Source: Candidatus Pelagibacterales bacterium (GTDB lineage Bacteria; Pseudomonadota; Alphaproteobacteria; TMED109). Taken from it: 35,010 bases of DNA. The notes under the pieces are model-generated. The model was not told the DNA's origin and did no database searches. It worked only from the letters and a program-made list of their open reading frames with translations. The translations under genes and the position numbers were made by a program. Of this stretch, positions 18,819-23,748 are shown in pieces. The DNA lies in NCBI GenBank assembly GCA_002732015.1, contig PCCU01000043.1:1-35010 (forward strand). Reading direction: 5' to 3'. Position 1 is the first letter of the stretch; each line of letters starts with the position of its first letter.

Positions 18819-19106
18819 ATGTCTATAAAAGTAAAATTGCAAATTTATTTAATATTTTTAGCTTCTTTATTAATGCTTCTAAGCGTCGTTATACAAGATT
18901 TATCTTTGGGAAAAATATGGTTTTATTTGAATTCTAATAGTTTAGTAGGAATTCAATCATTTGCTGAAGAAATATCTGAGTCTTATAGATATGGGAGTTT
19001 TTTTTATGAACTAATAATTATGTTATTAAATGCAAACTTATTTTTTTTCAGTGGGATTTTTAGCATCATGATATCTTTAAGTTTGTTTATGTTCTTAGAC
19101 TCTTAA
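18819..19106 (+). CDS. Hypothetical small membrane protein
   Basis: 95-aa ORF with two hydrophobic segments; its 3' end overlaps convergent pheT by 12 nt. Confidence 0.5.
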   Translation: MSIKVKLQIYLIFLASLLMLLSVVIQDLSLGKIWFYLNSNSLVGIQSFAEEISESYRYGSFFYELIIMLLNANLFFFSGIFSIMISLSLFMFLDS

Positions 19107-21482
19107 TTCACCATTAACTTCTTTTTTTACTTTCAAAATAATATTGTGCATTATTTCATTAATTTCTTTAGCATTAAAAACTTTATCTTTCTGCAAAATT
19201 TCTACTTCTACTCCAACAGAAAACCTTTTATCATTATTTTCTATATTATTATATATATCAAATACCAACACTTCTCCAATAATATCATTGCTGGATTTAA
19301 TAGAATTTATTAAATCGCCTACTTTTACATTGTTAGGCAAAATAAAAGAGAAATCTTTTTTTAAGTTCAGAAATGGCGATGGGTTAAATTCTTTAGATTT
19401 TACTTTACTAGAAAAGTTCTTTAATAATGACTCAATTTCTAAAGTTCCTAAAACTGTTTGTTGTTTAATCTGAAACTTTTTCATTAGTTTAGGATGTAAT
19501 TCTCCTAAGCTTCCTATTTGTTCATTATTGATAATAATATCAGCCGATTTCCCAGGATGATAGTATTCACTTTTACTTCTTATGAAATCAATTTCTAGTT
19601 GTAATGAAAATATTTTGATAAGATCTAATATAATTGCCTTCATGTCAAAAAAATCATAAAATCTTCTATTGTAATACCAGTTTTTTTTTGTCTGATAACC
19701 GCTAAGAACTAATCCTATAAATTTTTCTTGTTTAGAATAATCAATTCCTCTAAAAATATCACCTATCTCAAACATAGCGAAAGCATCAAAACCTTTTGCA
19801 TAGTTTCTTGAAATAGAGTCCAATAAATTTGGATATAACGAGTTTCTCATTACACTTAATTCATTAGATATAGGATTAACTAAACGTAGGTCCTCTTTAT
19901 AGTCTGTATCAGGTATAATTTTTTTTGGAGAAATAAAAGTAAAAGATTTTATTTCGTCTAAACCAAGGTGTGCCAACTTTTCTCTCAAGTCTATCTCTAT
20001 ATTTTTAGAAAAAGGCATACTTTCCTTTGACATAAAGTCATTATTTAAAGAATTTTCATAGGGTATGTTGTCATAACCATCTAACCTCACAACTTCTTCC
20101 ACTATATCATTGGCATGAAATATATCATGCCTCCATGTTGGAGCTGTAATGGAAAAAAAAGATTTTTCTTTTTTTATCTCAAACCCTAATCTTTCTAAAT
20201 AATTAATTTGTAAATCAGTACTGATACTATATCCTGTAATAGTTTTAAAGGTATCTGTTTTATAATTGATTGAATGATTTTTTTCTAGAGAGTTTCCTGC
20301 AGAAATTGCTTGGCTATAACTGCCATGACAGAAATTTATTATCATTTCAGTAGCATAACTCAAGCCCTCTAACAAACCATTCTTATCAACACCTCTTTCA
20401 AATCTATATCTAGCATCAGTAATTATATTATGTCGTCTTCCGGTTTTTGAAATTAAATCTGGATCAAAATAGGCAACTTCAAGAAATACTTTTTTTGTAT
20501 TAGAATCAACACAACTATTTGCACTACCCATCACACCTGCTAGACTCACTATTTTTTTATCATCTGCTATAACAAGATCTTTGTCTGTTAAATTATAAGT
20601 TTTATTGTCTAACCCTATAAAGCTCTCTTCATTATTTGCTCTTCTTACTTTAAGATTTCCTTCAATTTTATCTAAATCAAAAACATGAAGCGGGCGTCCT
20701 AAATCAAATAATATATAATTTGTAATATCTACTAGCATAGAATTTGGATTAATACCTATTTGAATTAGTTTGTTTACAAAATTTACAGGACTCTTAGGGT
20801 TTTTTTCTATTTTAAACTCTCTACCGATAATCAAAGGACAATCTTTTTTATTTGATAAACTAGAAAGGTCCCAAACCATCTCACTTTTAAAACTATCTTT
20901 CTCATGAAAAACTTCTTTTTTTATTAATTGTTTTGATAATTTAGCTGCTAATTCTCTGGCAATACCTTTGACAGATGCGCAATCGCCTCTGTTGGGAGTA
21001 AGTCCTATTTCAAAGATATAATCTTTTTCAAAGTAACTACCATAACTTTTTCCAACTTCAAAGGTATCTCCTAAATCAATTATTCCTGCTGAGTTTTCAG
21101 ACAAGCAAAGCTCTTCCTCAGAGCAAAGCATTCCATCGCCTTCAACTCCTCTTATGCTTTTTTTCTCTAATTTAAACATTTTTCCTGGAATAAAAGTTCC
21201 ATTTGGAGCAAATACTGTTTTCATTCCTTCATATAAATTTCCTGCTCCACATACTACGTTGTAATTTTCTTTGCCCGATGTAACCTCACATAAACTTAAT
21301 CTATCTGCATTAGGATGCTTCTTAATGCTTTTTAACTCACAAACTAACATATCCATTAGGCTAGGGTTAATAGGTTGAAAATTTTCTACCTCTAATCCAA
21401 GGTCTGTTAAAATTTTGGCAATTTCAGCAGGATTATTATTAAGTTTGATATGTTCTTTTAGCCACGAAAGAGTAAACTTCAT
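19095..21482 (-). CDS. pheT: Phenylalanyl-tRNA synthetase beta subunit
   Basis: MKFTLSWLKEHIKLNNNPAEIAKILTDLGLEVE, VCGAGN, TPNRGDC, GRPLHVFDLDKIEG, APTWRHDIFHANDIVEEVVRLDGYDNIP. Confidence 0.98.
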   Translation of the reverse strand: MKFTLSWLKEHIKLNNNPAEIAKILTDLGLEVENFQPINPSLMDMLVCELKSIKKHPNADRLSLCEVTSGKENYNVVCGAGNLYEGMKTVFAPNGTFIPGKMFKLEKKSIRGVEGDGMLCSEEELCLSENSAGIIDLGDTFEVGKSYGSYFEKDYIFEIGLTPNRGDCASVKGIARELAAKLSKQLIKKEVFHEKDSFKSEMVWDLSSLSNKKDCPLIIGREFKIEKNPKSPVNFVNKLIQIGINPNSMLVDITNYILFDLGRPLHVFDLDKIEGNLKVRRANNEESFIGLDNKTYNLTDKDLVIADDKKIVSLAGVMGSANSCVDSNTKKVFLEVAYFDPDLISKTGRRHNIITDARYRFERGVDKNGLLEGLSYATEMIINFCHGSYSQAISAGNSLEKNHSINYKTDTFKTITGYSISTDLQINYLERLGFEIKKEKSFFSITAPTWRHDIFHANDIVEEVVRLDGYDNIPYENSLNNDFMSKESMPFSKNIEIDLREKLAHLGLDEIKSFTFISPKKIIPDTDYKEDLRLVNPISNELSVMRNSLYPNLLDSISRNYAKGFDAFAMFEIGDIFRGIDYSKQEKFIGLVLSGYQTKKNWYYNRRFYDFFDMKAIILDLIKIFSLQLEIDFIRSKSEYYHPGKSADIIINNEQIGSLGELHPKLMKKFQIKQQTVLGTLEIESLLKNFSSKVKSKEFNPSPFLNLKKDFSFILPNNVKVGDLINSIKSSNDIIGEVLVFDIYNNIENNDKRFSVGVEVEILQKDKVFNAKEINEIMHNIILKVKKEVNGELRV

Positions 21483-22552
21483 CTTAATCCTCTAATAATA
21501 TTTGGAAATCCATTGGGGTTGAAGCTATAATTTTTTAACCACTTTAAATCATTTTCATAAAACATTCTTAAATCATTTATACCATATTTTAACATAGCAA
21601 ATCTTTCTACTCCTAAACCAAAAGCAAATCCTCTGTATTTTTCAGCATCTATACCACAGTTTTCTAATACTTTTACATTAACCATCCCACAACCTAATAC
21701 TTCTAACCATTCTTCATCTTTACCTATTTCTAAAGTGTTATTTTTTTTAGAGCACCCTATGTCAACCTCTGCTGATGGTTCCGTAAATGGAAAATAAGAT
21801 GGTCTAAACCTAACCGGAATATTTTCAATCTGAAAGAATTTTTCTAGTAGTATCTTTATTACACTTTTAAGTTGCGCCATATTTGCATTTTTATCTACTA
21901 GTAATCCCTCAACTTGATGAAACATAGGCGAGTGAGTAGCATCATCATCACACCTGTATGTAGCTCCTGGAGCAATAATTTTAATCGGTAATTTCTTTTG
22001 TGACATTACTCTAATCTGTACAGGAGATGTATGGGTTCTTAGTAGCATATTCTTTTTATTTAAATAAAAAGTATCATGGTCTTGTCTTGCAGGATGATTT
22101 TCTGAAATATTTAAAGCAGTGAAATTATTATATTCATCTTCAATGTGAGGACCTTCTTTTACTTCAAAACCCATACTTGCTAATATACTGGTTATTTCAT
22201 CTAGTGTTTTGGTAATTGGATGGATACTTCCACTTTTTACAGGCCTTACAGGTAAAGAAATATCAATTTTTTCATTTATTAGCTTAGAGTTTAGCTCTAT
22301 ATCAAGAATTTCTTGTCTTTTATTTAAAAAATGATCCTCTATTTCTTTTTTAATTATATTTAAAGTTTTTCCAGCATTTGCTTTTTCACTTTTACTCAAT
22401 TCTTTTAGTGATTTTAATAAAATTGTAAATTTTCCGTTTTTTCCAATATAGTAAATTTTTAATTCATCTAACTTTTCTAATGGTAAATCAACAGCAAGAT
22501 CTTTAAAAACTAAAGATTTTAGTTCCTCTCCTTTTTTAATGATTTCTTCGAT
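21479..22552 (-). CDS. pheS: Phenylalanyl-tRNA synthetase alpha subunit; probable non-canonical ATC start at 22552 (ORF track starts at TTG 22399)
   Basis: Catalytic core: HPITKTLDEITSILASMGFEVKEGPHIEDEYNNFTALNISENHPARQDHDTFY...FRPSYFPFTEPSAEVDI...GFAFGLGVERFAMLKYGI. Extension with typical PheS N-domain: (M)EEIIKKGEELKSLVFKDLAVDLPLEKLDELKIYYIGKNGKFTILLKSLKELSKSEK; SD GAGGTG 5 nt before ATC. Confidence 0.9.
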   Translation of the reverse strand: MEEIIKKGEELKSLVFKDLAVDLPLEKLDELKIYYIGKNGKFTILLKSLKELSKSEKANAGKTLNIIKKEIEDHFLNKRQEILDIELNSKLINEKIDISLPVRPVKSGSIHPITKTLDEITSILASMGFEVKEGPHIEDEYNNFTALNISENHPARQDHDTFYLNKKNMLLRTHTSPVQIRVMSQKKLPIKIIAPGATYRCDDDATHSPMFHQVEGLLVDKNANMAQLKSVIKILLEKFFQIENIPVRFRPSYFPFTEPSAEVDIGCSKKNNTLEIGKDEEWLEVLGCGMVNVKVLENCGIDAEKYRGFAFGLGVERFAMLKYGINDLRMFYENDLKWLKNYSFNPNGFPNIIRGLR

Positions 22553-22575
22553 TTAAGCACCTCGAAATGTTAAAG

Positions 22576-22923
22576 TTAATTCTTTATTTTTTCCATTATG
22601 GCTTTAAATGCAGCAGGATCTTCATAAGCTATATTAGCTAAAACTTTCCTATCTAGTTGAAGGTTTTTTTTGTTAAGCTTTGAAATAAATACAGAATACT
22701 TCATGCCAAGCGCTCTACATGCTGCATTTATTCTGATAATCCAAAGTTTTCTGAGTTCTCTTTTTTTATTTTTTCTGTCTCTGTAGGCATATTGTCTATT
22801 TTTTTCAACCCTTTGCATAGCAGCTCTAAATGTATTTTTTTGTCTTCCTCTAGAACCTTTAGCTGCAGACAGTACTTTTTTATGTCTTGCGTGTTTAGTT
22901 ACACCTCGTTTTACTCTGGCCAT
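22576..22923 (-). CDS. rplT: 50S ribosomal protein L20
   Basis: [62 protein letters not shown]. Confidence 0.99.
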
Positions 22924-22937
22924 TTAATCCTACTTAA

Positions 22938-23135
22938 TTATGTTCTTAAAAAATTTCTTTTTATAATTTTCTCATCAGACTTTGCAAGTATAGTAGTTCC
23001 CCTAGCATTTCTAATAAATTTATTTGTTCTTTTAATCATACCATGTCTTTTTCCTGCTTGATTCATTTTAACCTTACCAGACCCGGTAAAAGAAAATCTT
23101 TTTTTTGCACCACTTTTGTTTTTAATTTTTGGCAT
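22938..23135 (-). CDS. rpmI: 50S ribosomal protein L35
   Basis: [36 protein letters not shown]. Confidence 0.98.
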
Positions 23136-23211: not shown

Positions 23212-23748
23212 TTATTTTTTTTCTTCTGGAGTTAATATCATAACCGCTTGTCTTCCCTCTAGTTTAGGATCTAACTCAACCTTTGAAATATTCTTTGTTT
23301 CATCCTTAATTCGCTCCAACACCTTAATACCTAATTCCCTATGAGCCATCTCTCTTCCCCTATATCTAAGTGAAATTTTAACTTTATCCCCTGCACCTAA
23401 GAACTTTTTTATGCTTTTAATTTTTATGTTAAAATCATTTAAGTCAATATTTGGTCTAAACTTTAGTTCTTTTATATCTATAACTTTTTGCTTTTTTTTT
23501 GCTTTTGCAGCTTTTTTTTGGGCTTCAAATTTAAATTTTCCATGATCTAGTATTTTACAAACAGGAGGCTTTGCGTTTGGAGAAACTTCAACTAAGTCCA
23601 ATCCTATGTCTTCTGCCATATCTAGAGCTTTCTGTAGCTTAACAACACCAATCATCTTACCTTTGTTATCAATTAACCTTACTGGATCTATAAAAATTTC
23701 TTTGTTTATGCGCGGACCCGCATTGGTTGGAGAATTATTTCTTACTAT
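23212..23748 (-). CDS. infC: Translation initiation factor IF-3; probable non-canonical ATA start at 23748 (ORF track starts at internal ATG 23655)
   Basis: Core LDLVEVSPNAKPPVCKILDHGKFKFE...VKISLRYRGREMAHRELG; upstream in-frame (M)VRNNSPTNAGPRINKEIFIDPVRLIDNKGK is the IF3 N-domain; AGAAAGG 7 nt before ATA; in-frame TAG just upstream. Confidence 0.93.
   Translation of the reverse strand: MVRNNSPTNAGPRINKEIFIDPVRLIDNKGKMIGVVKLQKALDMAEDIGLDLVEVSPNAKPPVCKILDHGKFKFEAQKKAAKAKKKQKVIDIKELKFRPNIDLNDFNIKIKSIKKFLGAGDKVKISLRYRGREMAHRELGIKVLERIKDETKNISKVELDPKLEGRQAVMILTPEEKK

Follow-up and report, generated by a model that had tools for sequence, protein, structure and literature searches.

Initiation factor 3 (IF3) discriminates against AUU, AUC and AUA start codons (together AUH), and its own gene, infC, uses this for feedback, a control demonstrated in E. 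coli. Outside infC, the GTC start of sigR in Streptomyces is repressed by IF3 (PMC5472188). In S. aureus, AUA and AUU starts with extended Shine-Dalgarno sequences (SDs) were mapped by ribosome profiling, with ccpN (AUA), cvfC1 (AUU) and citZ (AUA) as cases, and such starts reach about 10% of AUG efficiency in reporters (PMC13009471). The same paper also cites an AUU start for E. coli pcnB. Taken together, sigR and the S. aureus genes show that a start discriminated against by IF3 is a device not limited to infC.

The window analysed here is a whole contig of 35,010 nucleotides from genome G000, whose assembly totals 1.45 Mb across 78 contigs. Its pheS gene has a known kind of start in a new gene, and the AUH cases found along with it are unusually many. 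As in infC, which is autoregulated and starts with AUU, AUC or AUA, the pheS codon lies behind an SD, and the infC gene of this same operon also has an AUH start, AUA. The two differ in that the AUH start of infC is widespread, with control shown in E. coli, whereas that of pheS is limited to a single clade and its control by IF3 is predicted. With sigR, pheS shares being a non-infC gene with a non-canonical start that gene callers misannotate, but sigR has GTC and not AUH, and is backed by mutants and western blots. The S. aureus genes have both an AUH codon and a start-proximal extended SD, like the GAGGTG of pheS, while E. coli pcnB shares the AUH codon. These starts were mapped experimentally or are named in the literature, whereas that of pheS is deduced by comparison; a further difference is that pheS encodes an essential aminoacyl-tRNA synthetase subunit. 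A literature search that covered few subscription journals found no bacterial pheS described as starting with a codon other than AUG.

The pheS frame lies on the minus strand, where an in-frame TAA (22555-22553) is directly followed by the proposed start, ATC (22552-22550), and the coding sequence of 357 codons (21479-22552) runs to a TGA (21481-21479) overlapping the ATG of pheT (19095-21482, minus strand). The SD GAGGTG (22563-22558) sits 5 nt 5' of the ATC, with GAGG at 7 nt. No ATG, GTG or TTG is found before the TTG at 22399-22397, which is codon 52. The original prediction had given positions for the TAA, the ATC, the GAGGTG and the TTG, and these proved exact on re-reading. It had also noted that the listed open reading frame, beginning at this TTG, lacks the N-terminal region of PheS. 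This is borne out by the Pfam N-terminal domain PF02912, which covers residues 25-91 and so lies partly upstream of the TTG, meaning that the upstream sequence belongs to PheS. The catalytic domain PF01409 follows at residues 95-341; the protein thus has both the N-terminal and the class II catalytic domains of a PheRS alpha subunit, and its alignment with relatives runs from residue 1. As for RNA folding around the start, nothing unusual and no conserved structure was seen.

In the genome collection searched, the nearest relatives with names are labelled Candidatus Pelagibacterales bacterium SP81, at 75% identity in PheS, and Rhodospirillaceae AG-430-C17, AG-919-G06 and AG-896-G13. We found an AUH codon at the pheS start in nine species from three genera (g1, g4 and g7), a set that includes AG-430-C17, whose record carries no MAG label. 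The codon is ATC in three species (G000, G003 and G006) and ATA in six (G002, G015, G016, G018, G019 and G020). Both forms occur in the window's own genus (ATC in G003, ATA in G002), while five species of g7 have ATA and g4 has ATC. In the alignment of the start region the AT is invariant, the third base is C or A, and an SD similar to GAGG or GGAG is kept in 9/9 species, as GAGGTG, CGGAGTG, TGGAGAG or TTGGAGA. No canonical start in these species gives the conserved protein. The comparison with the closest genomes that the original prediction had proposed therefore finds ATC or ATA at this position and never ATG, and it lends strong support to ATC as the probable start. Wherever pheS was read in further genera of this family, it starts with ATG.

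In three g7 species, though in none of the remaining AUH species, an in-frame TTG occurs four codons before the ATA. This TTG falls within the SD, and none is evident for the TTG itself. Chance is an unlikely source of the AUH codon and SD seen together in 9/9 species, since in G000 an SD of at least 4 nt at a spacing of 4-9 precedes only 131 of 523 canonical genes. With only about one quarter of the canonical-start genes having such an SD, SD-led initiation seems to be a minority in this genome.

In terms of distribution, a scan of 129 pheS loci gave 13 with AUH, from the nine species (four are repeats of the same genomes). Of the remaining alphaproteobacterial loci examined, about 115 in number, nearly all start with a canonical codon, and the nine species are alone in having no usable one near the N-terminus, aside from locus L120, where an apparent frameshift separates an ATG from the pheS frame. 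Two more loci, L084 and L089, looked odd at first and have ATG and TTG, respectively. In a maximum-likelihood tree of 42 PheS rows, computed after dropping residues 1-4 from the proteins of this family, the nine AUH species form a single clade with 100/100 support, and one change is enough to explain them. The AUH start of pheS arose once, in one ancestor of an AT-rich alphaproteobacterial clade. Within this clade at least two changes between A and C took place at the third base, which is never G. The absence of G across nine species is suggestive, not decisive.

Three other ways of reading the start can be set against this comparison. The TTG at 22399, which no other canonical codon precedes in the frame, would give a truncated PheS. 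This codon reads TTA, CTC, CTT or TTT in relatives, it would cut PF02912, and the codons upstream of it are conserved as protein, which makes it a very improbable start. A canonical start in general fares no better, with G003 having no ATG, GTG or TTG in its first 110 codons, so that the N-domain would go. Alternatively, translation could begin at a GTG at 22560 and reach the PheS frame by a -1 shift at AAAAAAG; the window does have an open frame there (GTG CTT AAA ... TTA AAA AAG), and a shift at that point enters the PheS frame. In G002, however, this frame stops immediately (GTG TTT AAA TAG), and the site lacks a GTG in g7 and g4; we regard the frameshift as almost certainly wrong. The same low probability applies to an ATG misread by sequencing or assembly error; the assembly is fragmented into 78 contigs, but independent genomes give ATC or ATA at the same site.

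The gene order around pheS is infC-rpmI-rplT-pheS-pheT, all on the minus strand, with rpmI at 22938-23135 (read from the sequence) and rplT at 22576-22923. The infC gene (23212-23748), recognised by IF3 homology, starts at ATA (23748-23746) behind the SD AAAGG (23760-23756) at 7 nt, and both ATA and SD are conserved in relatives. The listed infC frame begins at an ATG at 23655, losing 31 residues. In most alphaproteobacterial samples viewed, infC has ATA or ATC behind an SD; its AUH start is seen class-wide and is older than the change in pheS. This, together with the apparent AUH starts of several unlinked genes in the genome, weakens the idea of a special operon logic between pheS and infC. 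The original prediction, which linked IF3-sensitive initiation of PheRS to the infC operon, is thus supported in part: such a link is possible, yet nothing requires pheS to be paired specially with infC, and linkage is not needed.

The initiation machinery looks ordinary. The initiator tRNA has an AGG/CCU and not a GGG/CCC stem and a CAU anticodon, with no difference between AUG and AUH genera. It was found in G001-G003, of the same genus as G000, whose own incomplete assembly yielded none. The IF3 of the window aligns normally with solved bacterial IF3. Ordinary IF3 and a CAU initiator tRNA (the latter from the same-genus genomes) are what is expected for IF3-regulated genes, and nothing in the genomes compared suggests that the AUH starts were caused by a change in either.

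Very probably, pheS starts at AUC or AUA with the ordinary initiator tRNA and an SD, and its initiation would be weak and IF3-sensitive as at infC. The initiator tRNA would pair with AUC at 22552 (AUC or AUA in the clade), the start-proximal SD would place the ribosome on this codon, and ribosomes terminating at rplT, whose stop lies 23 nt upstream, would perhaps help. The mismatch at the third base would make initiation weak and sensitive to the level of IF3. Control of PheRS through IF3 is biochemically likely, given that IF3 acts against AUH and that infC, in the same operon, starts with AUA. In an essential enzyme so much weaker a start would be surprising, unless it is offset by coupling or by a strong SD.

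We then looked for further AUH starts by comparing about 1.20 Mb of G000 with 1.14 Mb of the congeneric G002, a comparison used in place of a single-genome scan for missing starts, which was swamped by antisense frames. It gave 1033 reciprocal best pairs of open reading frames, or 708 after removal of shadow frames. In 35 pairs the alignment includes, for both genomes, at least 12 codons ahead of the first canonical one, and by inspection about 12 identifiable genes among them are hard to give a canonical start: trmB, fdhD, squalene/phytoene synthase, a glycosyltransferase, infC, pheS, a class I/II aminotransferase, parB, argC, and lptC-like, zapE-like and Tim44-like genes, most of them with a family assignment, but with the names lptC-like and zapE-like being guesses from sequence. 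A strict rule asked for AUH aligned in both genomes, an SD of at least 4 nt at a spacing of 4-9 in both, and no canonical codon within 12 codons. Six genes passed it (aminotransferase, squalene/phytoene synthase, glycosyltransferase, lptC-like, infC and pheS), plus the Tim44-like gene with CTG, while argC and parB fit by eye. This makes about 8 genes with a conserved AUH behind an SD in 708 pairs.

In both genomes the apparent start is ATT for the aminotransferase, argC and parB (G000 contigs C5, C9 and C24), and ATA for the lptC-like gene, the glycosyltransferase and squalene/phytoene synthase (G000 contigs C19, C27 and C34), all outside the window. Columns satisfying the strict rule occur inside genes at a rate of 0.4%, so a dozen genes with a few tens of columns apiece would yield one or two by chance, and the SD gives no independent evidence for these genes, since it is built into the rule. 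Each case other than pheS and infC is thus probable, not certain. A lipoprotein-like gene apparently without a start (G000, contig C24, 37566-38556) was left out of the count, since a homopolymer frameshift is its probable explanation.

These genes bear on why pheS has such a start. Either an IF3-responsive gene set or a lineage-wide tolerance of AUH is possible. Under the latter, changes from AUG to AUH behind an adequate SD would be tolerated in many genes, and pheS would still initiate at AUC or AUA, but through drift and without serving regulation. The dozen or so genes without a canonical start in both genomes, the conserved AUH and SD at several unlinked genes and the CTG of the Tim44-like gene all point this way, and they make drift a serious rival to regulation, with a probability we place somewhat short of even. 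On the other hand, pheS never went back to ATG in nine species despite its third-base changes, and IF3 and the initiator tRNA show nothing out of the ordinary. Translational coupling is a less likely account, and we hold it to be doubtful: ribosomes ending at rplT would reinitiate at the AUH 22-24 nt further on, and the identity of the codon would hardly matter. Every one of the nine AUH species does have an rplT-pheS gap of 22-24 nt, against a usual length of about 100 nt elsewhere, but short gaps also occur in several AUG lineages, the SD is conserved, and unlinked genes also appear to start with AUH. The most far-reaching option, that the clade has an IF3-tuned set of AUH genes (infC, pheS, argC, aminotransferase, squalene/phytoene synthase, parB and others), seems to us improbable. 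If true, shifts in IF3 or in free ribosomes would move amino-acid, charging and division genes jointly, without a transcription factor.

The preferred reading, an IF3-sensitive AUC or AUA start at pheS, would bring an essential aminoacyl-tRNA synthetase onto the short list of bacterial AUH-start genes. It also flags a lineage that may use such starts more often than model bacteria do, and genes of this kind are missed or truncated by standard gene callers. The clade offers a natural replicated system for asking if starts discriminated against by IF3 are selected regulation or tolerated drift.

Lastly, two minor observations concern the wider set of genomes. The longer rplT-pheS spacers of other alphaproteobacteria often carry terminator-like repeats. 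Genus g8 (L015-L021) is assigned by the classification tool to this same family, but its genomes measure 2.5-3.8 Mb, its loci are GC-rich, and in the tree its PheS lies well apart from the rest of the family (L001-L014).
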